From contig NZ_MCWZ01000299.1 in assembly GCF_002877365.1 (NCBI RefSeq), positions 62,001 through 126,000 on the forward strand: a stretch of 64,000 nucleotides of DNA, written 5' to 3'. The position numbers and the translations under genes are program-made. The stretch comes from Vibrio sp. 10N.261.55.A7 (GTDB taxonomy: Bacteria > Pseudomonadota > Gammaproteobacteria > Enterobacterales > Vibrionaceae). Under the pieces are notes generated by a model. It made no database searches and had not been told where the DNA came from. It saw only the letters and a list, made by a program, of their open reading frames with translations. Shown piece after piece: positions 3,753 to 19,303 of this stretch (within the stretch, counting starts at the first letter, position 1; every line of letters begins with the position of its first letter).

Positions 3753-4226
3753 TTATTTTTTGAACAATAAAACGACCGCTTCACTGGCAATGCCTTCTTT
3801 ACGCCCGGTAAAACCAAGACGTTCAGTCGTCGTTGCTTTTACATTGACATTACTAAGATCGGTTTCAAGATCCTCAGCAATCGCCGCGCACATAGCATCG
3901 ATATACGGGGCCATTTTAGGAGCTTGAGCCATGATCGTGACGTCGGCATTTCCTAATACGTAGCCCTGCTCTTTCACTCGGCGATACACATCTTTTAGCA
4001 GTTCACGGCTGTCTGCCCCTTTCCATTTATCATCGGTATCAGGGAAATGACGACCGATATCTCCGGCAGCAATGGCGCCCAATAATGCATCGGTGAGAGC
4101 ATGAAGTGCGACATCGCCATCTGAGTGCGCGACCAATCCTTGTTCATAAGGGATCGCCACGCCACCTATGATAACAGGCCCTTGACCGCCAAATTTATGA
4201 ACATCAAAACCATGACCAATGCGCAT
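3753..4226 (-). CDS. ispF: 2-C-methyl-D-erythritol 2,4-cyclodiphosphate synthase
   Basis: Fifth step of the MEP isoprenoid pathway: cyclises CDP-methylerythritol 2-phosphate with release of CMP. 157 residues. Zinc ligands Asp8, His10 and His42 are visible in GFDVHKF and [16 protein letters not shown] (33-39) and [11 protein letters not shown] near the end are family signatures. Its start is two bases after the ispD stop, so IspD and IspF, which catalyse nearby steps, are made from one transcript. Confidence 0.97.
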
Positions 4227-4228
4227 GA

Positions 4229-4951
4229 CTAACTTTCCTTATTTCGATTTAGGTAGAACTCAGCAAGTGCAAGATCTTCCGGCTGAGTTATTTTTATATT
4301 ATCTGAGCGACCATTGACCAGCGCAGGCGATAAGCCCAATCGCTCCATCGCTGACGCTTCATCGGTAATGACCGCATTTTCTTCTAACGCTTGATTCAAT
4401 GCATGATTTAGCGATTGAGTTGGAAACATTTGAGGCGTGAGAGCATGCCATAATGCCGTACGATCAACCGTCACGGAGATGTTTTGTTGTTCATCTGAAC
4501 GCTTCATAGTATCGCGTACAGGGCACGCTAATATTGCCCCAACATCCTGCACCAATGCGGTATCAATTAGCTTATCGATATCGCTAAGCTGAACGCATGG
4601 CCTTGCTGCATCGTGAACCAATGCCCATGATGACAACGTATTCTCTTCTACGTATTGAAGAGCGGACAACACCGAATCAGCACGCTCTTTTCCCCCGGAG
4701 ACACGAATGACATTCGCTTGTTTAGCGATAGACAGCGTTGGGAAATATGGATCACCTTCGCTAACAGCGATAACAACTTGGTCTATTTTGGGGTGAGATA
4801 ATAGTAAAGCAACGGTGTGCTCTAGAATTGTCTTATCATTTATTGATAGATACTGCTTAGGACGATCGGCTTTCATTCTGCTACCCACACCAGCGGCAGG
4901 CACGATCGCGATGATCTCTTGTTGAGATTCTTTCGAATTTTTTATTGGCAT
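4229..4951 (-). CDS. ispD: 2-C-methyl-D-erythritol 4-phosphate cytidylyltransferase
   Basis: Third step of the MEP pathway: transfers CMP from CTP to methylerythritol 4-phosphate. The nucleotide-binding signature PAAGVGSRM (residues 18-26) followed by PKQYL (31-35) and the later VHDAARPC are diagnostic. I choose the ATG ending at 4951 (240 residues), because the longer frame back to 4996 would run 44 bases into ftsB. The chosen start lies one base after the ftsB stop. This ftsB-ispD-ispF order is standard in gammaproteobacteria. Confidence 0.95.
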
Positions 4952-4952
4952 T

Positions 4953-5234
4953 CTACTGTGATTCCTCTCCAACCAATCGGTAGAACGTTTCGCCATCTTT
5001 TACCATTCCAAGCTCGTGTCTTGCTCGTTCTTCAATTGCGTCTAGCCCTTGGCGTAAGTCATCAATCTCAGCAAACATTTCTGCATTTCGAGCTCGAAGA
5101 TTGTCGTTGACTTGATGCTGAGCTTGAATATCACTATTGACCAAATTGAATTCAATTATGCCGTTTTTCCCGAACCACAATGTGTACTGCAGCCAGCCAA
5201 ACAGAAGCGTTAATGTCAAAACAAAGATTCGCAT
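4953..5234 (-). CDS. ftsB: Cell division protein FtsB
   Basis: Small bitopic divisome protein that forms the FtsQ-FtsL-FtsB complex linking early and late division proteins. 93 residues from the ATG ending at 5234: a single membrane helix at about residues 3-20, then a periplasmic coiled coil (about 28-65). The longer open frame back to 5354 adds 40 residues that do not look like FtsB. It is the first gene of the rightmost operon segment, divided from uppP by a terminator and about 120 bases that should hold its promoter. Confidence 0.94.
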
Positions 5235-5360
5235 AATCGTAACGTAATAATAAAGAGAAAGGCTAAAGAACTCATATATATCACAATGCGGCTTTTCAAG
5301 CGAGATAGAGGAAGTAAGGAAAGAGTAAGAAATGGCGCATGACTGCAGCGTCATTTTGAT

Positions 5361-5392
5361 AAAAAGAAGGGCTAACTTTATCGTTAGCCCTT
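5361..5392 (-). terminator. Rho-independent terminator after uppP
   Basis: Ten-base perfect stem AAGGGCTAAC / GTTAGCCCTT around a six-base loop (5367-5392). Read on the minus strand it is followed by CTTTTTAT, the expected U-rich tail, so it ends transcripts coming from uppP. Confidence 0.85.
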
Positions 5393-5419
5393 TATATCCA
5401 TAATCACTAAAAAGGACTC

Positions 5420-6223
5420 TTAGTTAAGCAGCAAGAAAGCAAAGAGCCCACCACCAAGAATTAAGCGATAAATAACAAAGGGAGTCATACCCATTCTAGA
5501 AATAAGTTTTAAGAACAAGTAAATACAGATATACGCGCTAATGAATGACGTGATAACGCCCGTTGCTAACACGCCCAGTTGAACCGGTTCTCCACTCGCC
5601 ACCAATTTCAATCCTAAGTAACCACCAGCGAGCAAAATGATAGGAATCGACATCAAAAACGAAAAGCGCGCTGCCGCTTCACGAGTAAAACCTAAATACA
5701 GTGCCGCGGTTATCGTAGCGCCAGAGCGAGATGTACCAGGGATCATGGCCATAGCTTGAGCCAAACCGATGAATACTGATTTTTTCCAATCCGCCTGATA
5801 TTCATCATTCATCAATTCTGCATTCTTATCGACGTACCAAAGTAGCAGGCCGAAAACGATGGTCGTTGTTGCAATGACCCAAGCGCTGCGCAGGTAAATT
5901 TCGATAATATCTTTCATGAAAAGACCAAAAACACAGGCAGGAATCGTCGCCAATAGGATCATCCATGCAAGCTTTGATTCTTTGCTGCGTTCGCCTTTAA
6001 AAATGGAGCCAAAGAAGGAGCTTAAAAGAGTCACGACTTCTTTTCTAAAGTAGATGATAACAGCCGCTAACGTTCCCACGTGAACAGCGACATCAAACGC
6101 CAAGCCTTGATCTTCCCAGCCTAACACTGCAGAAGGTAAGATAAGGTGAGCAGAGCTCGAAATAGGTAAAAATTCCGTTAAACCCTGAATCAAGGCAAGG
6201 ATGAATGCTTCTATATAACTCAT
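5420..6223 (-). CDS. uppP: Undecaprenyl-diphosphatase UppP (BacA)
   Basis: Inner-membrane phosphatase that recycles undecaprenyl diphosphate to the monophosphate carrier for peptidoglycan and other surface polymers; excess confers bacitracin resistance. 267 residues, very hydrophobic with about eight membrane segments. Signature motifs [15 protein letters not shown] (13-27) and PGTSRSGAT (162-170) are intact. I use the ATG ending at 6223; a longer frame to 6250 would overlap folK by 11 bases. It is last in the folB-folK-uppP group and has its own terminator. Confidence 0.95.
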
Positions 6224-6239
6224 TAAATTCTCGTTAATA

Positions 6240-6728
6240 CTATAAATCAAACCAAGGTTCGATACGGGTTAAAGACCCTAATCCAGTCGACTGGCTCCAC
6301 ACTTGCTGGACCGTTCTTCCATCTGAAGGGATCACTAAATCAGGACAAAGCTCATAAAGCGGTTGAATCACAAAGGGATACTTGAAAATATCACTTCTTG
6401 GTAATTGAGGGTCACTTGAGCGAACTTCAGTACCAAACAAGATGACATCAAGATCTAACGTTCTATCTTGATACTTCTCAGCGAACTCTGAGCGCCCCCA
6501 GCGAACTTCTATACTACGCAGCAATTGTGAAAACTCGGTTAATGTTGAACTTGTTTTCATCTCGATGACAAGATTATAAAACGAGTCACTACTAAAACCG
6601 ACGGGGTCGCACTCATAAATCGTCGATAGTTTTAGGTTTTCTCCTAAATGAGAGAGCTCTTTCACCGCCGCTTCAACGTGCTTCTGTTTTTCTACATTCG
6701 TTCCTACACCAATGTAAACGGTGATCAT
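6240..6728 (-). CDS. folK: 2-amino-4-hydroxy-6-hydroxymethyldihydropteridine diphosphokinase
   Basis: HPPK of folate synthesis: moves diphosphate from ATP to 6-hydroxymethyl-dihydropterin. 162 residues. The motif [12 protein letters not shown] (88-99) supplies the two magnesium-binding aspartates (92 and 94), and RWGR at about 76-79 is part of the ATP loop. Its ATG overlaps the folB stop by four bases. FolB makes the substrate of FolK, so the coupling is functional. Many bacteria carry a second FolK near panB; this one belongs to the folB-linked type. Confidence 0.94.
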
Positions 6729-7078
6729 TGAGCGCCTCTTTCAATGATCACACCAACCCCTTTTGCTTGCGCCACAGCACCAGGCTTGGTTAAACGGATC
6801 TTGACCCAAGGCACACCAAATCGAGTCATAATGATCTCAGCAACTTCCTCAGCAACACGCTCAACCAGTAAGAATCGACCTTGCTCGATGTGTTTTAGAA
6901 CCGCCTGACTGACTTCAAAGTAATCCAGAGCATCGGCTACATCATCACTTTTACCCGCAGGCTGATTGTTATGACCCATTTCAATATCTAGAACCAGCTT
7001 CTGTTTGATCTCTTGCTCCCAATCATAAACACCAATGGTTGTGATCACTTCGAGCTGTTCTATAAATACTTTATCCAT
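6725..7078 (-). CDS. folB: Dihydroneopterin aldolase
   Basis: Cleaves 7,8-dihydroneopterin to 6-hydroxymethyl-dihydropterin and glycolaldehyde in folate synthesis. 117 residues from the ATG ending at 7078; the longer frame to 7123 is not needed. LVERVAE (71-77) supplies the conserved substrate-binding glutamate and RLTKPGAV (95-102) the catalytic lysine (Lys98). It overlaps folK by four bases and is transcribed away from plsY. Confidence 0.94.
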   Translation of the reverse strand: MDKVFIEQLEVITTIGVYDWEQEIKQKLVLDIEMGHNNQPAGKSDDVADALDYFEVSQAVLKHIEQGRFLLVERVAEEVAEIIMTRFGVPWVKIRLTKPGAVAQAKGVGVIIERGAQ

Positions 7079-7371
7079 GATGGAGATTGTCCTTTGTAGA
7101 GGTCGGATACCCAAACGGGTCAAAAAAAATTACTATCTAACGGTTCCATCTCACCAACTTAGCAAAGTGCCAGTAGTGTGATGAAATGAATCGCGATATG
7201 ATAGCAAGTACTAGCTATTAGAGCATCTGTTTCATAACGTGCTCATTTCACACTATTTATCTTTACGTTCATGTGGCTAATTAAACCATTACCCATAACG
7301 GAGAGGTGAGTTATTTAGGCATAAAAACCACTAGCTTGAAGACGAAAAGACTTCTATACGAGTAACGCATC
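7079..7371. promoter_or_regulatory. Divergent intergenic region folB / plsY
   Basis: 293 bases between divergent genes that must carry promoters for both folB and plsY. I see no convincing consensus promoter, large repeat or gene. A short GAGAGGTGAG at about 7301-7310 resembles a ribosome binding site but no sizeable frame follows it. Confidence 0.4.
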
Positions 7372-7983
7372 ATGAGCCCACTTGTTCTCACATTGATCAT
7401 ATCAGCCTATTTACTTGGCTCGATCTCAAGTGCGGTACTGATCTGTCGTGTATTGCGTCTACCAGACCCCCGCAATATCGGTTCCCAAAACCCCGGTGCA
7501 ACCAATGTGCTAAGAATTGGCGGCAAAAAAGCGGCGATTGCTGTTTTGCTGTGCGATATGCTGAAAGGGACAATTCCAGTGTGGGGTGGCTACTTTCTTA
7601 ATATCGACTCTTTTCTTTTAGGTGTCGTTGCCATTGCGGCGTGTCTCGGTCATATGTACCCAATCTTTTTCCACTTTAAAGGCGGCAAAGGAGTCGCGAC
7701 GGCATTAGGGGCTATAGCGCCCATTGGTCTAGGGCTAACAAGCATCATCGTCTTTACATGGCTTGTTGTCGCGATTGTATTTCGCTACTCATCTCTTGCT
7801 GCGCTCGTGAGTGTTCTTCTTGCTCCTTTTTATACGTGGCTGATCAAACCGCAATATACCCTGCCAGTTGCCATGCTTTGTTGCTTGATTGTCTTTCGTC
7901 ATACCCAAAACATAAGACGCTTGCTTGAAGGAACGGAACCCAAAGTGGGTGAGAAAAAACGTGGATTAAAAAAGGCCTCATAA
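7372..7983 (+). CDS. plsY: Acyl-phosphate:glycerol-3-phosphate acyltransferase PlsY
   Basis: Integral membrane acyltransferase that uses acyl-phosphate (made by PlsX) to form lysophosphatidic acid, the first step of membrane phospholipid synthesis. 203 residues, five or so membrane helices. The three conserved cytosolic motifs are present: [11 protein letters not shown] near the start, GSQNPGATN and [12 protein letters not shown]. It is convergent with tsaD, and the stop codon itself lies in a hairpin that could serve as terminator. Confidence 0.95.
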
Positions 7984-7998
7984 CGAGACCTTTATTTC
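7971..7998 (+). terminator. Probable terminator at the end of plsY
   Basis: AGGCCTC (7973-7979) pairs with GAGACCT (7985-7991) with one mismatch, followed by TTATTT. The stop codon is in the loop. Short and imperfect, so only probable. Confidence 0.5.
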
Positions 7999-8042
7999 AA
8001 TATTCCAGATTCAATAACAACGTTACTGATGAATTCTAAAAG

Positions 8043-9059
8043 CTAGTTGATCGGCTCAAGTTGATCGATCGGCCAGCGTGGCTTCGCTTGTACTGAAAGA
8101 TCACTCGTCTCACCATTTTTAAGACGTTGCATTCCTGCATAAGCAATCATTGCACCGTTATCGGTACAAAATTCAGTGCGGGGATAATACACCTCGCCAC
8201 CAACTTTCTTAGCCAGCTCACCTAGGGAAACGCGAAGCTGTGTATTCGCGCTCACACCACCGGCAATCACAATGCGCTTCATACCTGTTTGCGCCAATGC
8301 TCGCTTACATTTAATCACTAGCGTGTCACAAACGGCTTCTTGAAAAGCATAAGCAATATCAGCACGAGTCTGATCATCATTATCATTCGCGGCTATAGTA
8401 TTGGCCGTAAATGTTTTCAAACCAGAAAAGCTCATATCTAGCCCAGGCCTATCCGTCATTGGGCGAGGAAATTTAAAACGTCCTGGCGTGCCATTTTCAG
8501 CCAGCTTAGCCAGCAATGGGCCACCTGGGTAATCCAGCCCCATCAACTTAGCCGTTTTATCAAACGCTTCACCGGCTGCGTCATCCACCGACTCACCAAG
8601 AATCTTGTACTCACCAACACCGTGAACTTCAACCATCATGCTGTGCCCACCTGAGACAAGTACAGCAACAAAAGGAAACGGTGGCGGGTTGTCTTCTAGC
8701 ATAGGAGCAAGCAAGTGGCCTTCCATATGATGAACCGCAACGGCAGGAACGCCCCACGCGTAAGCAATACTGCGACCTATCGTCGCGCCAACCAAAAGAG
8801 CACCCACTAAACCCGGGCCAGCAGTATACGCAATGCCATCAATGTCCTTAGAGGTTAATTTAGCCTCTTTGAGCGCTGCTTTTATTAGTGGGATGGTTTT
8901 TTTTACATGATCACGAGAAGCGAGTTCAGGAACCACACCACCGTAATCAGCATGCAGCTTTACTTGACTGTATAGTTGATGGCTCAACAAGCCTTTTTCA
9001 TCGTCATAAATCGCTATCCCCGTTTCATCACACGAGGTTTCAATACCAATAATGCGCAT
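8043..9059 (-). CDS. tsaD: tRNA N6-adenosine threonylcarbamoyltransferase TsaD
   Basis: Catalytic subunit of the TsaBDE complex that transfers the threonylcarbamoyl group to A37 of ANN-decoding tRNAs (t6A). 338 residues. The metal-binding pair His111 and His115 lies in VHHMEGH (109-115), and the ASKHA nucleotide-binding loop [10 protein letters not shown] is at 5-14. [12 protein letters not shown] near the C-terminus completes the family pattern. It is transcribed divergently from the rpsU operon, a classic gammaproteobacterial arrangement. Confidence 0.96.
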
Positions 9060-9316
9060 ATTTTTCTCTGTATGCTTTTATCTATAGTAGGAATTTGCGG
9101 CAATCTTACCCTGCCTTGGCTTAGCAAACAAATTTTGTACAGACAATAATCGATAAAAGGCTTTACAAAGCCAAGGTGATCGGATTAAAATTCCGCACCA
9201 TTTTTGATCAAGCTGGTTTAAGACCGAACGTTAATGAGAGTTAGCTCGATGGGTAACTTCTCTGATTCGGCTACGAGAAACCAGCGATAATGAATAACCC
9301 CTGAGGTGAAAGGCAT
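9060..9316. promoter_or_regulatory. Divergent intergenic region tsaD / rpsU
   Basis: 257 bases expected to hold the tsaD promoter and the main promoters of the macromolecular-synthesis operon. I looked for a LexA box (CTG-N10-CAG), as is found at this spot in E. coli, and did not see a good match. The rpsU ribosome binding site GAGGTGAAAGG lies immediately before its ATG. Confidence 0.5.
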
Positions 9317-9532
9317 ATGCCAATAGTTAAAGTACGTGAAAACGAACCGTTCGACGTTGCACTACGTCGTTTCAAGCGCTCTTGTGAAAAAGCAGGTATC
9401 CTTTCTGAAGTGCGTCGTCGCGAGCACTATGAAAAACCAACTACAGTTCGCAAACGCGCTAAAGCAGCAGCTCAAAAGCGTCACGCTAAGAAGCTAGCTC
9501 GCGAAAACGCTCGTCGCGTTCGCCTGTACTAA
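9317..9532 (+). CDS. rpsU: 30S ribosomal protein S21
   Basis: Small-subunit ribosomal protein needed for initiation on native messages. 71 residues, the universal length, with the conserved start [20 protein letters not shown] and a strongly basic C-terminal half. First gene of the macromolecular-synthesis operon, which links ribosome, primase and sigma-70 production. Confidence 0.98.
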
Positions 9533-9557
9533 TAACTTAATCCATAAGGACTGAGTT

Positions 9558-10001
9558 ATGGCTCTTATTGAACAACTCAAAGAAGAGCAGAAATTAGCGA
9601 TGAAAGCCAAGGACAAACCGCGCCTTGGCACTATTCGTTTAGCCTTATCAGCAATTAAGCAACGTGAAGTCGACGAGCGGATTACTCTGAACGACGACGA
9701 CATTACTGCGATTCTGGTAAAAATGGTTAAGCAACGTCGCGATTCTGTCGCTCAATTTGAAACAGCAGGTCGTCAAGATCTTGCTGATAATGAGAAAACT
9801 GAAATCACAGTGCTAGAGGAATTTATGCCTCAACCGCTTACTGAAGATGAAGTCGTTGCCTTGATTACAAGCGCAATTGAAGAATCTGGTGCTGCGGGCA
9901 TGCAAGACATGGGCAAAGTGATGGGCGTTTTAAAACCTCAGATTCAAGGGCGTGCAGATATGGGTAAAGTCAGTGGTTTAGTTCGCTCTAAACTCGCTTA
10001 A
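9558..10001 (+). CDS. yqeY: GatB/YqeY domain protein
   Basis: 147-residue YqeY family protein: helical, resembling the C-terminal tRNA-binding tail of the GatB amidotransferase subunit. The exact role is not settled; a contribution to aminoacyl-tRNA or amidotransferase function is inferred only from the fold. Features: an Arg/Lys-rich N-terminal helix, the conserved VVKMVKQRRDS-like stretch (here ILVKMVKQRRDS) and a C-terminal MGKVMGVLKPQ motif. It sits between rpsU and dnaG, 25 bases after rpsU, whereas E. coli has no gene at this place. This insertion is, as I recall it, usual in vibrios. Confidence 0.88.
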   Translation: MALIEQLKEEQKLAMKAKDKPRLGTIRLALSAIKQREVDERITLNDDDITAILVKMVKQRRDSVAQFETAGRQDLADNEKTEITVLEEFMPQPLTEDEVVALITSAIEESGAAGMQDMGKVMGVLKPQIQGRADMGKVSGLVRSKLA

Positions 10002-10020
10002 ATACTCAGATCAAATTGCA

Positions 10021-10060
10021 ACAAGCCGTGCTATCCTTTGGACGCACGGCTTGTTTGTAT
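10021..10060 (+). terminator. Attenuator-like hairpin between yqeY and dnaG
   Basis: A perfect 11-base stem, ACAAGCCGTGC (10021-10031) with GCACGGCTTGT (10044-10054), followed by a broken U-rich stretch (TTGTATCTAATATTTTC). It occupies the position of the internal terminator T1 that lowers dnaG expression relative to rpsU in the E. coli operon. Partial termination is inferred, because downstream genes have no obvious separate strong promoter. Confidence 0.65.
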
Positions 10061-10088
10061 CTAATATTTTCTTTTTTTCTTAGGTTTT

Positions 10089-11828
10089 ATGGCTGGACAC
10101 ATCCCTAGAAGCTTTATCGATGACCTTCTCGCTCGACTAGATATAGTCGACATTGTCGACGCACGTGTGAAGCTTAAGAAAAAAGGAAAAAACTACGGCG
10201 CTTGCTGTCCGTTCCATAACGAGAAAACCCCCTCTTTTAGTGTTAGCCAAGAAAAACAGTTCTACCACTGTTTTGGGTGTGGCGCGCACGGCAATGCTAT
10301 CGACTTCATGATGGAATACGAACGCCTAGAGTTCGTTGAAGCGATTGAAGAACTGGCCTCATTTCTCGGTTTAGACGTTCCACGTGAGCAGCGCGCTGGC
10401 GGTTCAAGTAATCAACCGACAGCCAATACGGAACAAAAACGCAACCTCTATGATTTGATGGGCAGTATCGCTCAGTTTTATCGTAATCAGCTCAAGCTCT
10501 CGAGCAGTAAAGTCGCCATCGATTACCTCAAAGAACGCGGGCTATCTGGTGAAATCGTTCAGAAATTTGGTATCGGCTTTGTTGCCGATGAGTGGGATTT
10601 AGTCCGTAAGAATTTTGGCCAGCAGCGTGCGACTCAAGACATGCTCGTGACTGGCGGCATGCTCATCGAAAATGACAAGGGCAACCGATACGATCGCTTC
10701 CGTGGCCGTGTCATGTTCCCAATACATGATCGACGTGGACGCGTCATTGGGTTTGGTGGGCGAGTCATCGGTGACGGTACACCGAAATACCTTAACTCGC
10801 CTGAAACTCCAATATTCCATAAAGGCAAAGAGCTTTATGGATTATACGAAGTACTCCAAGCTTATCGAGAGCCACCACAAATCTTAGTGGTTGAAGGCTA
10901 TATGGATGTGGTCGCTCTGGCCCAGTATGGTGTTGATTATTCTGTTGCCTCACTAGGCACTTCAACAACTGGCGATCACCTACAAGTCTTGTTTCGTCAA
11001 ACCAACACCGTCGTGTGTTGTTACGATGGTGATCGCGCTGGCCGCGAAGCCGCTTGGCGAGCACTAGAAAATGCACTGAGTTATTTAAAAAGCGGCAATA
11101 TATTAAAATTCCTCTTTCTGCCTGATGGTGAAGACCCAGATAGCTTTATTCGCAAGCACGGTAAAGAAGCGTTTGAGCTAGAAGTTAAGCAGGCCGCACC
11201 GTTATCAAAATATCTGTTTGATCATTTGGTCTCTCAAGTTGACATGGGTAATAATGAAGGGAAAGCAGCCTTAGAATCGCTTGCGATTCCGTTGATCAAT
11301 AAAGTACCCGATGCCTCTCTTCAGGCTCAGTTATTAAAGATCTTAGGTCAAAAAACAGGCATCTATAAGAAACCGCTACTACCAAAAGATTCAGAATCTC
11401 GACCTCAACCACATAAAGAGATCAAGCGCACGCCAATGCGAGAAGTTATCGCTTTGCTTATTCAGAATCCGAGCTATGCTGAAATGGTGCCCGATTTATC
11501 ATCGGTGAGAGAATTATCACTACCGGGATTAACTTTATTAGTCGAAGTCCTTGAATATTGTCGGGCGAATCCCCATATCAACACGGGCCAATTGTTAGAA
11601 CAATGGCGCAATAGCAAAAATGAGGCACTTCTGTCTCGTCTCGCCGGCTGGGAAATCCCTGCAAATGAAGACAATCAAGAAGAACTATTTTTAGACTCAT
11701 TGGATAAAATTTTAGCCCAATGCGTTGAAAAACAAATTGAAAACCTGCAAGCCAAAGCAAGAAGTATCGGTTTATCAGCCGACGAAAAAAGGGAGCTACT
11801 AGCGCTAATGCTAGATTTAAAAGCGTAA
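10089..11828 (+). CDS. dnaG: DNA primase
   Basis: Synthesises RNA primers at the replication fork in association with DnaB helicase. 579 residues. CHC2 zinc ribbon with Cys40, His43, Cys61 and Cys64; TOPRIM catalytic core with VEGYMDVVAL and the YDGDRAGREA acidic pair; a C-terminal helicase-interaction domain of about 150 residues. The start has a poor ribosome binding site (only TAGG), as expected for a low-abundance protein, and it follows an attenuator-like hairpin. Confidence 0.97.
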   Translation: MAGHIPRSFIDDLLARLDIVDIVDARVKLKKKGKNYGACCPFHNEKTPSFSVSQEKQFYHCFGCGAHGNAIDFMMEYERLEFVEAIEELASFLGLDVPREQRAGGSSNQPTANTEQKRNLYDLMGSIAQFYRNQLKLSSSKVAIDYLKERGLSGEIVQKFGIGFVADEWDLVRKNFGQQRATQDMLVTGGMLIENDKGNRYDRFRGRVMFPIHDRRGRVIGFGGRVIGDGTPKYLNSPETPIFHKGKELYGLYEVLQAYREPPQILVVEGYMDVVALAQYGVDYSVASLGTSTTGDHLQVLFRQTNTVVCCYDGDRAGREAAWRALENALSYLKSGNILKFLFLPDGEDPDSFIRKHGKEAFELEVKQAAPLSKYLFDHLVSQVDMGNNEGKAALESLAIPLINKVPDASLQAQLLKILGQKTGIYKKPLLPKDSESRPQPHKEIKRTPMREVIALLIQNPSYAEMVPDLSSVRELSLPGLTLLVEVLEYCRANPHINTGQLLEQWRNSKNEALLSRLAGWEIPANEDNQEELFLDSLDKILAQCVEKQIENLQAKARSIGLSADEKRELLALMLDLKA

Positions 11829-11925
11829 CCCTATTGATTTGGCCTCAAAGGAAAGATTTGTTATTACTCGTGGTTTGCAATTCGCATACTAAATCCGTCA
11901 CCAGATACGAAGTTGGATACCGTCT

Positions 11926-13773
11926 ATGGATCAAAATCCGCAGTCACAGCTAAAACTACTTGTTATTAAAGGCAAGGAGCAAGGCTATCTGACGTACGCC
12001 GAAGTAAATGATCACCTGCCTGCAGAAATCGTCGATTCTGAACAGGTAGAAGATATCATTCAGATGATTAACGACATGGGCATTAAAGTAGTTGAAACTG
12101 CTCCTGATGCCGATGATCTCGCTCTAAATGATGACAACACAGTAACAGATGAAGATGCAGCTGAAGCTGCAGCCGCTGCGCTATCAAGTGTAGAAAACGA
12201 AATTGGTCGTACAACCGATCCTGTCCGCATGTATATGCGAGAGATGGGTACCGTTGAACTTCTAACTCGTGAAGGTGAAATCGATATTGCGAAGCGCATT
12301 GAAGATGGTATTAACCAAGTTCAAAGTGCCGTTGCCGAATACCCAGGTACAATCCCATACGTACTTGAACAGTTTGATCGTGTACTTGCTGAAGAGCTTC
12401 GCTTAACTGACCTTATTAATGGGTTTGTCGATCCAAATGATGATGGAACGACAGCACCAACAGCAACACACATTGGTTCAGAACTAGCAACCAACGATCT
12501 TGCGGACGAAGACGGCGATAAAAACGAAGAAGACGATGAGGAAGAGGAAGAGGAAGATACAGGTATCGACCCTGAACTTGCTTTAGAAAAGTTCACCTCA
12601 CTTCGTAATACTTATCAAAACCTTCAGCTTGCTATCAATGAGCATGGTGCCGGCAGTGAGAAAGCATCGAAAGCAACGTCACTTCTACAAGAAGTCTTTG
12701 CTGAATTCCGCTTAACGCCAAAACAGTTCGATTACCTAGTGAACGAACTGCGCACTTCAATGGATCGTGTACGTACTCAAGAGCGTTTGATCATTCGTCA
12801 AACGGTTGAATACGGAAAAATGCCTAAGAAATCGTTTGTTGCGGTATTCACTGGTAACGAATCAACTGAAGCATGGTTAGATGAAGCACTGGCTTCTGAC
12901 AAACCTTACGCGGAAAAAATCAAGCGCAGTGAAGAAGACATTCGTCGCTCTATTCTCAAACTTTCTATTATTGAAAGAGAGACCAACTTAACTGTTCAAA
13001 GCATTAAAGACATCAGCCGACGCATGTCGATTGGTGAAGCGAAAGCTCGCCGTGCTAAGAAAGAGATGGTTGAAGCGAACTTACGTCTTGTTATCTCAAT
13101 CGCTAAGAAATACACCAACCGTGGCCTTCAATTCTTGGACCTTATCCAAGAAGGTAACATCGGCCTGATGAAAGCGGTTGATAAGTTTGAATACCGTCGT
13201 GGTTATAAGTTCTCAACTTATGCTACATGGTGGATCCGTCAAGCAATCACTCGTTCAATTGCTGACCAAGCTCGTACGATCCGTATTCCGGTTCATATGA
13301 TCGAAACGATCAACAAGCTAAACCGTATTTCTCGTCAGATGCTACAAGAGATGGGTCGCGAACCATTACCAGAAGAACTTGCTGAGCGCATGCAAATGCC
13401 TGAAGACAAGATCCGTAAGGTATTGAAGATTGCTAAAGAGCCAATCTCAATGGAAACGCCAATTGGTGATGATGAAGATTCTCACCTAGGTGACTTCATT
13501 GAAGATACGACACTTGAACTACCACTAGACTCAGCGACATCTACCAGTCTACGTGGCGCGACCAAAGACGTACTTGCGGGCTTAACACCTCGTGAAGCTA
13601 AAGTACTTCGTATGCGCTTTGGTATTGACATGAACACTGACCACACACTTGAAGAAGTGGGTAAGCAGTTTGATGTTACACGTGAACGTATCCGTCAGAT
13701 TGAAGCGAAAGCACTGCGTAAACTTCGTCACCCTAGCCGCTCAGAAACCCTGCGTAGCTTCTTAGACGAGTAA
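11926..13773 (+). CDS. rpoD: RNA polymerase sigma factor RpoD (sigma-70)
   Basis: Housekeeping sigma factor. 615 residues: region 1.1 (about 1-80), region 1.2 with [12 protein letters not shown], a non-conserved spacer with an Asp/Glu run (about 192-212), regions 2.1-2.4 around [20 protein letters not shown] and [13 protein letters not shown], region 3, and region 4.2 with [20 protein letters not shown]. Ends with the usual RSFLDE. 97 bases separate it from dnaG; an additional promoter, such as the heat-shock one inside E. coli dnaG, could exist but I cannot locate it. A strong terminator follows. Confidence 0.98.
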
Positions 13774-13790
13774 AAATCAGTCAAATATTT

Positions 13791-13819
13791 AAAAGGTGAG
13801 CAAAAGCTCACCTTTTTTG
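13791..13819 (+). terminator. Rho-independent terminator of the rpsU-yqeY-dnaG-rpoD operon
   Basis: Stem AAAAGGTGAGC / GCTCACCTTTT around AAAA, followed by TTTG. Lies 17 bases after the rpoD stop. Confidence 0.92.
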
Positions 13820-13916
13820 TATCTGATTGGTTTAAGTGGATAAAAACTAAGCGCAATTGCCCCCTACGGTGGGTAGACATGCTTGTGTCCTTCCCCTATA
13901 ATCGTTCACCTAATTC

Positions 13917-13992
13917 GGCCCCTTAGCTCAGTGGTTAGAGCGCACGACTCATAATCGTTCGGTCCCCAGTTCAAATCTGGGAGGGGCCACCA
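13917..13992 (+). tRNA. ileX: tRNA-Ile2 (anticodon CAT, lysidine-modified), reads AUA
   Basis: 76 bases including the encoded CCA. The acceptor stem GGCCCC/GGGGCC, D loop, anticodon CAT at 13950-13952 (tRNA positions 34-36) and T-loop TTCAAAT all fold normally. CAT can mean initiator Met, elongator Met or Ile2. The acceptor pairs C4-G69 and C5-G68 are recognised by TilS, and the body closely resembles E. coli ileX, which also lies beside rpoD. I therefore call it Ile2, although simple anticodon-based tools would label it Met. The locus equals the tRNA-Met attachment site described for Vibrio islands VSP-II and VPaI-1. Confidence 0.9.
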
Positions 13993-13995
13993 AAT

Positions 13996-14040
13996 ACAAA
14001 AAGGCCTGAGAGCATTTACGCTTCTCAGGCCTTTTGCTTT
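13996..14040 (+). terminator. Rho-independent terminator after the tRNA
   Basis: Long stem AAAAGGCCTGAGA (from 13999) / TCTCAGGCCTTTT (to 14034) with an 11-base loop, followed by GCTTTT. It ends the tRNA transcript a few bases after CCA. Confidence 0.9.
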
Positions 14041-14304
14041 TCTGCTCGCTGCGTAGCAAATATGTAGTCACTCAAACACCTCAATCCTTTGCATTCCACC
14101 TCAATCATTGACTGAATTTCAATCGGCCTACTTTCTAATACCGACCCAGCCCTATCCATCTAGACGCGAAAGCTAGGTGGGCGACTCTAGATTCAGGAAG
14201 CGCACAAACCAGAAATAAAGATTAAGCGGTACATGAGAGTCAATGAGAGAGATAGAAGGCTAGGACTAGCTACTAGTTAAGCAACACGAAGCCACTACTA
14301 ATTC
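14041..14304. other. Non-coding stretch between tRNA terminator and cassette
   Basis: No gene, no integrase fragment and no second copy of the tRNA 3' end seen. A loose inverted repeat (CCATCTAG at about 14156 with CTAGGTGG at about 14173) is present but lacks a U tail, so I do not call it a terminator. Confidence 0.5.
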
Positions 14305-14997
14305 TTACTTAGAAGGTGCTTTTTTAGCCTTACTGCGAATCGTTCGGTAGCTAATAGCCGCAAAGTAGTCTTCCCTAAATTTATCAGATTCCAACATGAG
14401 TTTGGGCACGACTAAGCGTACAACAGTCCCTGCACGAGCAATCGATTTTGAGGTAGTGCCAACTATATAAGAGATATCGCCTTTCTTGAGTATTACACCC
14501 TTACTAAGAATGGGAGTGAAGTTAACATTCAACCCTTTCACCAATTCAAACCCAAATAGTGTCAAGTCTCTACCTGGCTGAGATATGGTTTCTTTAAATT
14601 CAGCTTCTACGGTTACTGGTTCAGAGTGCACAATCTGACGTAAGTTCTCCACCTGATCATTCACCGAACTAGAAAACACCCACTCACTAATAATCGGTTC
14701 CCACTTTCCACCTAAACGCACACACTCTCGATACGTTTTCTGATTATGCCTGCCAGCATTGAGTGTACAAATCTCGATAGAACCTTGTTCAGAGAATGGC
14801 AACGTCATACGAAAAACACTGTCCCTACCAAAGTGTTTGTAGATATCGGTGATCTCTTCGACATGAAGCTTGTGACAGCCAAGTGGTAGCTCGTCACTAT
14901 TTTCGTCAATCACAATACGGCAATGTTTGCCCTTAACACCGTCGATATAACAACGGAAGTAATGCTCAGCACGTTCTATAACTTCAAAATCTCGCAT
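14305..14997 (-). CDS. Hypothetical protein, third gene of the tRNA-adjacent cassette
   Basis: 230 residues that I do not recognise. No signal peptide, no membrane helix and no standard enzymatic motif seen. It has mixed beta-rich composition with two cysteines close together (GSIEICTLNAG and TYRECVRLGG) and a basic C-terminus ending KAKKAPSK, which could favour nucleic-acid contact. It lies 33 bases after the preceding cassette gene on the same strand, so it is probably co-transcribed with the two replication-like genes upstream. Its function is unknown; calling it an accessory replication, partition or defence protein would be a guess. Confidence 0.72.
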   Translation of the reverse strand: MRDFEVIERAEHYFRCYIDGVKGKHCRIVIDENSDELPLGCHKLHVEEITDIYKHFGRDSVFRMTLPFSEQGSIEICTLNAGRHNQKTYRECVRLGGKWEPIISEWVFSSSVNDQVENLRQIVHSEPVTVEAEFKETISQPGRDLTLFGFELVKGLNVNFTPILSKGVILKKGDISYIVGTTSKSIARAGTVVRLVVPKLMLESDKFREDYFAAISYRTIRSKAKKAPSK

Positions 14998-15030
14998 TAC
15001 TTTTCACTTTGCTCCGAATAAACAATCACA

Positions 15031-15921
15031 TCAATTACGCTTGCTAAGGGAAGTAGCTTCTTCTTCACCAATATCTTCGATCTCCACAGCAGCACTTTTT
15101 TCTTGTAGCATCTTTTGAATACGTTGCCCAAGTGTATGATCAAAGGCTTGTCCTTTCGCAATCAAATCATCTCGGCGCTTATCATTTTCGGTAGGATTAT
15201 CTTCATTCAAGCTCGTGCTAATTTTCTGACTTTGCTCTTCAAGATAGATATCCATGTCATCCAAAATAACTTCACGAAACCATTGAGTGTATTTACGGTT
15301 AAACTCTGATTCAAAGTTACGTTCTGAAAAACTTCTCACCTCACGCATTTTGTACTTCTTAATGAATGCCTCTACTCGGTCAAGCTCAGCGTTCGGCACA
15401 GGGAAATGGAACAGACGTTGACGGGCTTTGTACATTGACTCTTTCGTTGGTGAGTTCGCTAATTGGCGAAGTCGAATAAGAGAAGGTGGCCACTCTCGAT
15501 CCTCATCTAAACGTTCTAGCAGATTGGCCTCTAAACGTTTATACGATTCTGGAGTTAGCGTGGCGGCAAATTTCATAAAATGAATATCTGGCTCATCCCC
15601 AAAAAACTGCTTCATCTTGGAATCAAAAGCCTGCATCAGCATGAACCAGACTTTCAAAATCTGTTTGCTTTGGCCTTTTTCTTTGTACTCATCCAGTGCT
15701 TTTTGATCACGAGAGTTAGACATGCGATGTGATTCATGGGGCGTATTTTGTAGCCCTGACTGACGATGTTGATTTTGGGTTGGGTATCGATTTGATGCCA
15801 CTGCCATTCCGCTTCCATCACTTCGAGACTGCTTAGACAGTTTCCCCAACTGGGCGAGGCGCTCTTCGAAAGAAACGCCTAGATCAGGAATGTTCTTAGG
15901 TCTGTTATGTTTATCGGTCAT
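15031..15921 (-). CDS. Hypothetical protein, resembles phage P-type helicase loader
   Basis: 296 residues. The first 75 or so are polar and probably disordered (Ser/Gln/Asn-rich); then comes a helical domain. A segment with EWPPSLIRLRQLANSP (about 149-164) followed by FNRKYTQWFREVILDD recalls the layout of the lambda P helicase-loader family (a proline-containing 'WPPS' turn, then a tryptophan-containing helix), but the match is by eye only. No Walker motif, so it is not a DnaC-type ATPase. Middle gene of the cassette; 70 bases separate it from the upstream winged-helix gene. Unknown function is the safe description. Confidence 0.7.
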   Translation of the reverse strand: MTDKHNRPKNIPDLGVSFEERLAQLGKLSKQSRSDGSGMAVASNRYPTQNQHRQSGLQNTPHESHRMSNSRDQKALDEYKEKGQSKQILKVWFMLMQAFDSKMKQFFGDEPDIHFMKFAATLTPESYKRLEANLLERLDEDREWPPSLIRLRQLANSPTKESMYKARQRLFHFPVPNAELDRVEAFIKKYKMREVRSFSERNFESEFNRKYTQWFREVILDDMDIYLEEQSQKISTSLNEDNPTENDKRRDDLIAKGQAFDHTLGQRIQKMLQEKSAAVEIEDIGEEEATSLSKRN

Positions 15922-15991
15922 TCGCTAATCCATTTAAAATCAAAGAGGGTCACAAAGTCGTCATGGTCTTTATTTGTACTCACTAAATCGA

Positions 15992-16738
15992 TCAAAACTC
16001 ATCATCGTCGTGTAAATAATCTTGGAATTTCTCTTCAAAGGCACTGAGTGCTGATTGCCTTGTTGGGCGATTCTGAGCGGAGTCTTTCCTCAATCTACCG
16101 AAGGACTCATCTTTAGCACTGTCTATTTTCTGGTGAAGTCGATTAATCAATTGCGTCTGAGAAAAAATCTTTTCTCCGGTCTCGTGAACATCTGCGACAA
16201 AAGAGTCCCAAATGTCCTTTCTTCCATGTACGCCCTTCTTAAACATGACGCCTTCAGCCCAGTCATGGATTTTCTCAGTATAAATTTCTAATACGTTGTA
16301 TTGCTTTTCATCTTTGGAAACATGAAGAGGTTTTATCTGCGAACGTTGGCTCCGGTTAAGCTTACCTTTATTGTTCTTTTTATTCTGTTGCAAACGTTCA
16401 TTTTGTTCCAATGCCATTTCCATCAAATTCATTTCGACGACGGGAATAGTATTGGTCACTTGGTTATCTAGGCACAACTTACCGAGAAATGTTTCTGCAT
16501 TTCTCTCTTGTTCACGAGGAGGTAACCTTGAAAAATGAATATGGCCACTGGAATAGAAGTGTCGTAAAACCGTCCTGAGGATTCCTCCTCCCATGCTCGT
16601 CATCTCGGACAATTCATCAATTGACGTTGAGAAATTGCCTTTGTTGTCTGCCATGTCAGCAAGAGCAAGAAGAACCAACTTATCTTCATGTTTGATGGCT
16701 TTAAAGCTCCACGCTAGGTGAGTAAATTGAGAAGACAT
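15992..16738 (-). CDS. Winged-helix protein, resembles phage O-type replication initiator
   Basis: 248 residues from the ATG ending at 16738, chosen because AAGG lies eight bases upstream; the frame is open to a GTG at 16756. The N-terminal domain has the pattern DKLVLLALADMADNKGNFST followed by IDELSEMTSM, typical of the winged helix in phage replication protein O and related primary initiators. The middle is Asn/Gln/Lys-rich and the C-terminal part is charged and helical, ending DDDEF. It is the first gene of the three-gene minus-strand cassette. Palindromes at 17174-17191 and 17109-17132 lie upstream and could be control sites. Confidence 0.7.
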   Translation of the reverse strand: MSSQFTHLAWSFKAIKHEDKLVLLALADMADNKGNFSTSIDELSEMTSMGGGILRTVLRHFYSSGHIHFSRLPPREQERNAETFLGKLCLDNQVTNTIPVVEMNLMEMALEQNERLQQNKKNNKGKLNRSQRSQIKPLHVSKDEKQYNVLEIYTEKIHDWAEGVMFKKGVHGRKDIWDSFVADVHETGEKIFSQTQLINRLHQKIDSAKDESFGRLRKDSAQNRPTRQSALSAFEEKFQDYLHDDDEF

Positions 16739-17361
16739 CTTTAAAACCTTAATCACAACAATCCGTTATTACTGGCTTTAATTATATAACTAAACGCAAG
16801 AGTTGTAACGATAGAATCGGCCGCCTCGTAGATTTCAGCAGACCGCCGTATCTAACGATTCCTGAAGTTCGATTATCACCTCAAGAATATAAACCAGTGG
16901 AAAATGGACATTTGCGAATAGGCGCCCCCCATCAGGCTAACATTCAAATCCGTGAGTAAAGCAAACCATTCAATACAAGGGTAAATAAGATTGAAAGAAG
17001 AGGCACTCCGGCACAGAAATGATATAAAACTCTAGGTTTCAGACTACTTACGGGGATTGCTCGTTAAACATCGAAGTGGTGAGGTGATCCTCGCTCTCCA
17101 GATACAACGACGGGAGCCATAAAGCTCCCGTCTATTCCAGAACAGCAAAAACGAAGTGTGTGTCATTATTTTTATAGCGTTAGAACGCTATTCCAACCTA
17201 GCAACAAACAACATGAATTCATATTACAAACGATCACTTTGTGAGCGATACTTTATTTGTCAGCTCAAAATTTATCAATGTTGCATACTGCGCCATTGCA
17301 TCGATGAATGACTTGTATCACCTTTTTATTAAGCTAACTATCAATACATAAGAAAGCGTCA
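16739..17361. other. Structured non-coding stretch between cassette and glmS terminator
   Basis: About 620 bases without a credible gene. It contains a 9-base perfect hairpin, GACGGGAGC / GCTCCCGTC (17109-17132), and an 8-base palindrome with a 2-base centre, ATAGCGTT-AG-AACGCTAT (17174-17191). The promoter of the cassette should be in the lower-numbered part of this stretch. I found no copy of the tRNA 3' end that would mark an attachment site. Confidence 0.5.
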
Positions 17362-17400
17362 AATAAAAAATGGCAGTGACCTCATAGGATCACTGCCATC
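17362..17400 (-). terminator. Rho-independent terminator after glmS
   Basis: Perfect 10-base stem ATGGCAGTGA / TCACTGCCAT (17370-17399); on the minus strand it is followed by TTTTTTATTT. Confidence 0.92.
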
Positions 17401-17470
17401 TTCATCTAATGCTTTAATACTCTCTATTAGAGGGAGTTCTCTCTAATGAAAGTAGACAACAAGACTACGT

Positions 17471-19303
17471 TTACTCTACCGTCACCGCTTTGGCTAGGTT
17501 TCTTGGCTGATCAACGTCCGTTCCTTTTATTAACGCAACGTAGTAAGAAAGCAACTGCATTGGAATCGTGTAATAAATTGGAGCGGTAATTTCGCTCACG
17601 TGCGGCATAGTAATGATCTTCATCGTATCATCACCTTCAAAGCCGGCATCTTCATCGGCAAATACATACAGCAGTCCACCGCGAGCACGTACTTCTTCAA
17701 TATTCGACTTCAGCTTTTCAAGTAATTCATTGCTAGGGGCAACGACGACCACTGGCATGTCAGCATCAATCAGTGCTAATGGGCCATGCTTAAGCTCTCC
17801 AGCCGCATACGCTTCCGCGTGAATGTATGAGATTTCTTTAAGCTTGAGCGACGCTTCCATAGCGATAGGGTAGAACTCGCCACGGCCAAGAAACAGAGTA
17901 TGGTGCTTATCAGCAAAATCTTCCGCCAACACTTCAATCTCTTTTTCAAACGACAACGCCGCATTAATTTGTTGTGGCAGAGCATGCAACGCCTGAACGA
18001 TCTCTTTCTCTTTCTCGCTCGACACGCGATTCTGCTGTTTGCCTAACGCCGTAACCAACATCAGTAATGCTGAAAGCTGCGTGGTAAAAGCTTTCGTCGA
18101 CGCCACGCCAATCTCAACACCAGCGCGAGTCATGAAGGCAAAGTCAGACTCACGAACCAGAGAGGAGCCCGCTACATTACAGATTGTCATCGCCGCCATG
18201 TAGCCTTTTTCTTTCGCAAGGCGAAGTGCAGCAAGCGTATCTGCGGTTTCGCCAGACTGAGAAAGCGTGATGAGTAGGCTGTTTGGACGAGTCACAAACT
18301 TACGGTAACGAAATTCAGAAGCGATTTCTACGTCACAGCTGACGCCTGCGATATCTTCAAACCAATAGCGAGCAGTCATACCCGCATTGTAGGACGTACC
18401 ACAAGCGATGATTTGAACATGTTCCACCTTACTTAAGATATCAACCGCGTTCACACCGATCGCTTCAGTCACGATCGTATCATCGTTGATGCGGCCTTCC
18501 ATTGTGTTGATCAACGCCGTTGGTTGTTCATAAATCTCTTTTTGCATAAAGTGGCGGTACTGGCCTTTATCGCCAGCATCATGCTCTGCATTCGATTCAA
18601 TGATCTCACGCTTAACGGCTTTACCAGTCACATCAACAACGTTCACTTCGCGGCGAGTGATCTCAGCAACATCACCTTCTTCTAGATACATGAAGCGGCG
18701 TGTTACATTGAGTAGTGCTAGCTGATCGGAAGCAAGAAAATTCTCTCCGACGCCAAAACCGATCACAATTGGGCTGCCTGATCGAGCAACCACTATACGA
18801 CTTGGATCTTTACGATCGACAGCCACCGTTCCGTAAGCGCCGTCTAACTGTTTGGCCGTTTTTTGCAATGCCTCAAGAAGCGAGTCACTGGTGCGACGTT
18901 CCCACTCAACAAGATGCGCAATAACTTCGGTATCAGTTTGAGATTCGAATACATAACCACGTTCACGCAGCACTTCACGTAACTCTTCATGGTTTTCAAT
19001 AATGCCATTGTGTACAACCGCAATATCACCTGACATATGTGGGTGCGCGTTTGCTTCAGAAGGTTCACCGTGGGTAGCCCAGCGCGTGTGAGCAATGCCT
19101 GTACCGCCAAGTACATTTTCTTCATCGACTGCATCAGACAATTCTTGTACTTTACCAAGTCGACGAACACGGGTTAGATTGTTTTGCGCATCAACAACCG
19201 CGACGCCAGCGGAATCATATCCACGGTACTCAAGGCGACGAAGGCCTTCGACTAATATTTCTGCTACATCACGCTGCGCGACTGCGCCTACGATTCCACA
19301 CAT
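17471..19303 (-). CDS. glmS: Glutamine--fructose-6-phosphate aminotransferase (isomerizing)
   Basis: Makes glucosamine 6-phosphate from fructose 6-phosphate and glutamine, the entry step to peptidoglycan and LPS amino sugars. 610 residues. Cys2 is the N-terminal glutaminase nucleophile (MCGIVGAV); RGYDSAG follows at about 27-33. Two SIS sugar-isomerase domains make up the second half ([29 protein letters not shown]). It ends with the conserved [11 protein letters not shown] tail. Ribosome binding site GGAG nine bases upstream. Transcribed alone or with the DeoR-type gene just upstream. Confidence 0.97.

Follow-up and report, generated by a model that had tools for sequence, protein, structure and literature searches.

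Three co-directional genes in a 64,000-nt stretch of DNA from Vibrio sp. 10N.261.55.A7 (contig NZ_MCWZ01000299.1; this whole stretch is referred to below as the window) probably form a domesticated phage-derived system that would load DnaB on the chromosome in place of DciA, a reading to which we assign a probability of roughly 77%. DciA has been proposed to load DnaB at the initiation of replication (PMC5109545, PMC9912922), the phage-derived dna[CI] genes have replaced dciA at least seven times in a mutually exclusive manner (PMC5109545), and loaders of different types bind DnaB at a common site (PMC9912922). Because phage-derived loaders are known to replace dciA, the 196 genomes of the genus that make up our sample were searched for DciA with PF05258; the loader families surveyed were DciA and the B-type, named after the second gene of the trio. 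A B-type gene is present in 91 of the 93 genomes without a DciA match, and the genome that contains the window is also without such a match. Helicase loading is essential, yet the loader has apparently been swapped some ten to twenty times within this one genus. The preliminary description of the region had placed three minus-strand genes between a tRNA gene and glmS, with coordinates that proved correct:

15992–16738, minus strand: gene A, O-like protein of 248 amino acids (open reading frame, PHROG matches, family alignment A1)
15031–15921, minus strand: gene B, candidate P-like helicase loader of 296 amino acids with an invariant WPP motif (open reading frame, profile comparisons)
14305–14997, minus strand: gene C, third member, 230 amino acids, no fold assigned, with a conserved LGGKWEPI..EWVFS core (alignment A3)

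Sequence relations of the three genes

The A protein combines an N-terminal winged-helix region (residues ~1–67) with a conserved C-terminal domain (residues ~125–247) that carries a WAE...W..FV motif. It matches several replication initiation or O-like families of PHROG, including phrog_1032 (E 3e-5, residues 1–67) and phrog_391 (E 3.3e-5, residues 1–106), in agreement with the O-like winged helix that had been recognized by eye in the first gene. Judged by these profiles, A is related to phage O-like initiators and shares their winged helix. The MS start is invariant in the 28 rows of the A family alignment (A1), and the ATG that yields the 248-residue protein is conserved in the family; an alternative GTG upstream, at 16756, is possible.

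For gene B, the window copy matches in PHROG only phrog_32663, a family of unknown function (E 2e-4) that is matched by all 28 members of the B family (E up to 0.05), and as a single protein it gives no direct match to the annotated loader family phrog_109. The two families are bridged by a protein from another genome (locus L141), which matches phrog_32663 at E 3.5e-27 and phrog_109 at E 0.0074. As the P-like reference we used proteins that match phrog_109, from 21 of 28 loci, comprising 15 strong rows (alignment A8) and 6 weak rows (A9); B was represented by two alignments, A2 for the trio form (28 rows) and A4 for the wider family (29 rows). In profile comparison, the wider family matches all 21 P-like rows at 97.3% (E 1.9e-11) and the 15 strong rows on their own at 78.8% (E 1.7e-5), and the trio form matches all 21 rows at 88.9% (E 2.4e-6). 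The bridge passes through the weak rows, with 95.2% (E 2.8e-8) between A4 and A9 and 98.0% (E 3e-13) between A9 and A8; control comparisons with C gave 0.1% and 0.4% (E 0.15 for the latter). On these profiles the P-like relation appears well supported for the wider B family, and that of the trio form would lean on the intermediates. A separate P-like gene, perhaps located in a prophage, is also present in the window's genome (L288, contig C27; phrog_109, E 1.4e-5).

The B profile additionally picks up a weaker group of genes in many further genomes. In 12 of 12 fetched loci of this group, two of them from outside the sample, the B-type gene (B') is paired with an A-type partner (A') and has no adjacent C. 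A and A' are related across most of A (99.3%, E 6.3e-21, hhalign), and the A' and B' frames overlap by ~140–150 bp in nine of the 12 loci (L135, L136, L139, L140, L142–L144, L151 and L152). An A-type partner thus adjoins the B-type gene in all 28 sampled trio loci and in all 12 fetched A'-B' loci; 66 sampled genomes have a B-type gene and no trio, and the A' partner was seen in the fetched loci only.

The third gene had been described as unrecognized, and we too found no confident relative: C matches phrog_18108 weakly (E 0.013), and a distant C relative (L094) matches the same family at E 3.8e-11. Searches of Pfam and NCBIfam gave nothing over the cut-off for A, B or C, a PDB sequence search with alignments A1, A3 and A4 gave no believable match, and the structure models of C, with a mean pLDDT of 33.8 (single sequence) or 43.0 (four-row alignment), were too poor for use. 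A HARP-like or DUF5710-like reading of the C core, GGKW...W.F, was considered and not used, its basis being recall and a sub-threshold DUF5710 match of the L094 protein (E 0.074). Solitary C-like genes also exist. One lies downstream of an AlpA-type regulator on an 83-kb Vibrio parahaemolyticus plasmid (NZ_CP010886.1; L131, 12001–12648), others are found at L092–L097, and a viral contig (L130, 3520–5243) contains an 80-residue C-like fragment next to a YqaJ-type recombinase gene (domain confirmed) and a RecT-like gene (assigned by eye). The last context hints at an origin of C in a phage replication or recombination region.

Distribution of the cassette and of dciA

Gene C is found in 33 of the 196 genomes, in 28 of them at E 4.7e-50 or better, and in each of these 28 trio genomes (27 besides that of the window) A, B and C are adjacent and in the same order. 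The three frames are thus more than chance open reading frames, and the trio travels as a unit, as the preliminary description had proposed to examine. It occurs in about one in seven sampled genomes and at many chromosomal places, including near the trpA, hemB, atp and purH genes (read by eye) and near glmS, which disposes of the possibility, also raised initially, that every Vibrio carries it at this site as a fixed part of the core genome. The named records matched by B are from Vibrio.

No gene family accompanies the cassette consistently. In 34 loci (28 with the trio and six with lone C-like genes), no family of open reading frames outside the trio occurs in more than eight; among the groups of eight, one includes an antisense frame inside the trio and the other two represent a single related cluster, L083–L091. 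At L081 and L082, which belong to genomes with 98.7% identical SecA (G003 and G093), the common sequence is limited to ~135 bp before A and nothing is shared after the stop of C, so the trio is without recognizable mobile ends. The neighbouring tRNA had been taken for an island attachment site; since a tRNA gene lies within the fetched 12–20 kb at only 4 of 23 other trio loci (L065, scanned separately, also has one), this association appears incidental, and tRNA attachment as a rule for the trio was rejected. Codon comparisons indicate strong purifying selection on A, B and C in the measurable pairs: of 11 pairs compared, seven yielded a dS value for each gene, and in these dN/dS is 0.000–0.158 for the three genes; dS was saturated in the single pair that includes the window copy.

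The combined B profile matches 96 of the 196 genomes at E up to 0.001, and 94 of these matches are strong (E 1.8e-66 or better); the weak matches in G132 (E 2.2e-4) and G133 (E 2.5e-7) were excluded from the 94. DciA is found in 103 genomes. Taken together, 100 genomes have DciA only, 91 have a B-type gene only, three have both (five if the two weak B matches are included) and two have neither (Fisher p 1.6e-49, a value that ignores kinship). The genomes with both are G062, with the form that lacks C, and G063 and G066, with the trio. The two with neither have a completeness of 79% and 91%, and no other genome fails to give a secA match; assembly gaps are therefore the likely explanation. Outside the genus, four genomes with a whole trio (G197, G284, G291 and G294) and one with a B match (G292) gave no DciA match over the cut-off.

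The association was also examined on a tree of LpxC and SecA from 97 genomes. The dciA locus, which is the lpxC–secA region, was fetched from 100 genomes, and G054, G101 and G163 were left out of the tree on account of short markers. G015 and G303 were coded as lacking DciA since their copies are broken; G015 is DciA-negative in the table of 196 genomes as well, PF05258 having missed its broken copy. The best tree requires at least 20 changes in cassette presence and at least 19 losses of DciA. Of 12 independent pairs across supported branches, 8–10 (mean 9.4) show DciA loss together with the cassette, none shows the opposite, and the rest do not differ (sign test, p 0.002–0.008).

The locus itself fits this pattern. 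In the 37 DciA-only genomes in which the lpxC–secA interval was measured (two others were not measurable), it spans 634–1165 bp with dciA inside; in the trio or pair genomes that gave no dciA match (54 measured), it is 298–575 bp in 50 and 785, 841, 1117 and 2277 bp in the remaining four. An intact-looking dciA stands beside the trio in G063, G066 and G322, and beside the form without C in G062. In G015 (L234), a trio genome, dciA is frameshifted, and in G303 (L226), another, it is truncated, with a match limited to residues 1–92 in a 119-residue frame, a break that a draft-assembly error could mimic; G303 and G322 are from outside the 196-genome sample. It is as if these broken and intact copies in trio genomes were a replacement caught in progress. 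In the window's genome there is no dciA in the 658 bp before secA, and no PF05258 match elsewhere at E up to 10; in 44 dciA-bearing genomes, the gene starts 200–640 bp before secA.

Weighing of the loader hypothesis and its alternatives

Several observations count against the proposal that the trio loads DnaB in place of DciA. The exclusivity is not absolute, since six genomes with the trio or pair hold a dciA gene or remnant (G062, G063, G066, G303, G322 and G015), and further remnants may have escaped notice, as locus inspection covered 52 of the 91 B-only genomes. The tree markers flank dciA, and transfer of that segment could blur the history. For the window's genome, the absence of dciA is read from the 658 bp and the whole-genome search, because the assembly breaks between lpxC and secA, the lpxC contig ending 46 bp past the lpxC match. 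Finally, the P-type loader likeness suggested early on for the second gene holds for the wider B family taken with its intermediates, and is weak without them, the trio form on its own being the weakest case: A2 matches the 15 strong rows on their own at 19.2% (E 1.2e-3) and the six weak bridge rows on their own at 24.3% (E 8.2e-4).

Of the alternatives, the one foreseen in the preliminary description is a stranded replication module or a minimal phage satellite, in which leftover or parasitic O/P genes would belong to an element replicated with the help of a phage. The O/P ancestry of A and B is compatible with such an element, as are the integrases near two trios, one of them also near a tRNA-Leu gene, and the occurrence of C-like sequences on a plasmid and beside a YqaJ gene in a viral contig. 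The purifying selection, the unconserved ends, the lack of an integrase or a direct-repeat boundary in the window interval, the want of shared accompanying genes and the near-exclusive pattern with dciA all speak against it. Moreover, searches of viral contigs, in which A was used as a single protein (a search that finds close relatives only) and B and C also as alignments (A2, A3), gave no significant relative of A or B. Phage records likewise gave nothing significant: 19 records for A (best E 0.05), some of which carry a replication initiation or O-like annotation, four for B (best E 0.6) and two for C (best E 0.5). A phage or satellite as the present state of the trio was accordingly rejected, and the early suggestion appears mostly wrong; as a whole, this explanation is unlikely.

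About as improbable is a role of the trio in replication restart, or on one replicon only, for instance the second chromosome, with dciA lost through some other linked change. O/P proteins could act at any fork, and a C homologue resides on a 1.85 Mb replicon in three named records; the tight exclusivity, however, concerns DciA itself, which is the general loader. An anti-phage or plasmid-competition system built of replication look-alikes, with an indirect link to dciA, would suit a mobile cassette that occupies many sites, some in variable regions, but it is very improbable, given that A, B and C have 0 PADLOC matches at E up to 1 and that defence would not predict dciA loss in 8–10 of 12 independent pairs with the reverse never seen.

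If the trio is a loader, B would, like lambda P, bind and open the DnaB ring, and A, through its winged helix and C-terminal domain, would bring the B–DnaB complex to the opened origin or restart forks. C may be an accessory factor that the trio version cannot do without and that probably touches DNA or the A–B complex, and the trio as such would presumably be essential. The cassette would arrive horizontally, at times on integrase islands, and coexist for a while with dciA, which would then be lost. Such an order of events fits G063, where the trio lies near integrases and dciA is intact, and G003, where an integrase gene lies upstream of A. At a little better than even odds, we further favour a three-protein loader in which C is an obligate component not known from other loader types; this loader would pass as a cassette from one Vibrio species to another and would have ousted the essential loader DciA many times in one genus, with stages of the swap (an island copy alongside intact dciA, co-resident genes, broken copies and clean deletions) surviving today. 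Vibrio would then offer a natural experiment in how an essential replication part is replaced and why dciA goes once a rival arrives. Three unassigned genes would acquire a likely function, and the co-resident species are where the order of gain and loss can be examined.

Known loader systems and genomic surroundings

The 2017 DopC/DopE study of Brezellec et al. (Genome Biol Evol 9:1561) reportedly describes a chromosomally domesticated gene pair, derived from lambda O and P and found where DciA and DnaC/I are missing. The present genes resemble that system in being an O/P-derived pair present where DciA is absent; they differ in that the trio has a conserved third gene, C, in 28 of 28 trio genomes and is thus not a two-gene system. 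The A'-B' form without C may well be DopC/DopE itself. DopE is named as a loader family in PMC13326638. O/P-derived loaders are already published, and the principle behind the trio is thus not new. Novelty appears to lie in gene C, in the repeated turnover of loaders inside one genus, in the intermediates with a co-resident or broken dciA, and in the identification of these particular genes; in the literature on DopC/DopE and on DciA with Vibrio, we found no open paper that describes the trio. Should the DopC/DopE publication include Vibrio, the A'-B' form would count as known.

Compared with the other loaders, the trio would share with DnaC/DnaI the displacement of dciA by a phage-derived loader, as described for the latter in PMC5109545. 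DnaC and DnaI carry an AAA+ domain, whereas the Pfam and NCBIfam matches of A, B and C include no AAA+ family; and whereas that same source counts 0 of 1,426 genomes with both loaders, co-residents are found here. The trio is also distinct from DciA, as A, B and C gave no PF05258 match in Pfam (E up to 1) and DciA was not found in 91 of the 94 B-type genomes.

The likeness to lambda lies in the order of an O-like gene followed by a P-like gene and in the kinship, seen at the profile level, of A with O-like families and of the wider B family with P-like ones. The differences are the added third gene, the chromosomal location and the lack of an iteron-like repeat array, lambda carrying iterons inside O. 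Positions 14000–17471 contain seven families of two-copy direct repeats (70–93% identity), none of them tandem. With no iteron array found in the trio, A may differ from lambda O in not marking its own origin.

The features around the trio in the window are the following:

13917–13992, plus strand: tRNA gene with anticodon CAT, typed as Met by ARAGORN and which we take to be of the Ile2 type; neighbour of the trio
16781–16809, minus strand: promoter-like site before A, GTTACA-17-TATAAT, 10/12, a consensus match only
17471–19303, minus strand: glmS, neighbour of the trio (SIS/GATase domains)

The promoter-like site is weak, because the region has three such sites, whereas shuffled sequences average 7.2. 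The interval 13992–17471 holds no further frame of integrase size, and the initial remark that no integrase stands beside the trio was borne out by the open reading frames of that interval. Integrases near the trio are domain-confirmed at two loci elsewhere, the remaining loci having been read by eye only. One of the two, L065 in G063 (3848–16466), contains the closest relative of the window trio (67–71% identity), near a tRNA-Leu gene, with a phage-type integrase gene on either side, and this genome has kept an intact dciA; at the other, L081 in G003, the integrase gene is ~840 bp upstream of A.

On the other side of the tRNA, away from the trio, lies rpoD (sigma-70 domains). The trios of L081 and L082, which belong to a distant branch, also lie in the rpoD-to-glmS part of the chromosome but are oriented oppositely to the window copy, which suggests a hotspot. 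At L150 (G322) and at L146–L148, from three genomes of another genus of the family, the trio is found near dnaB and alr, as read by eye.

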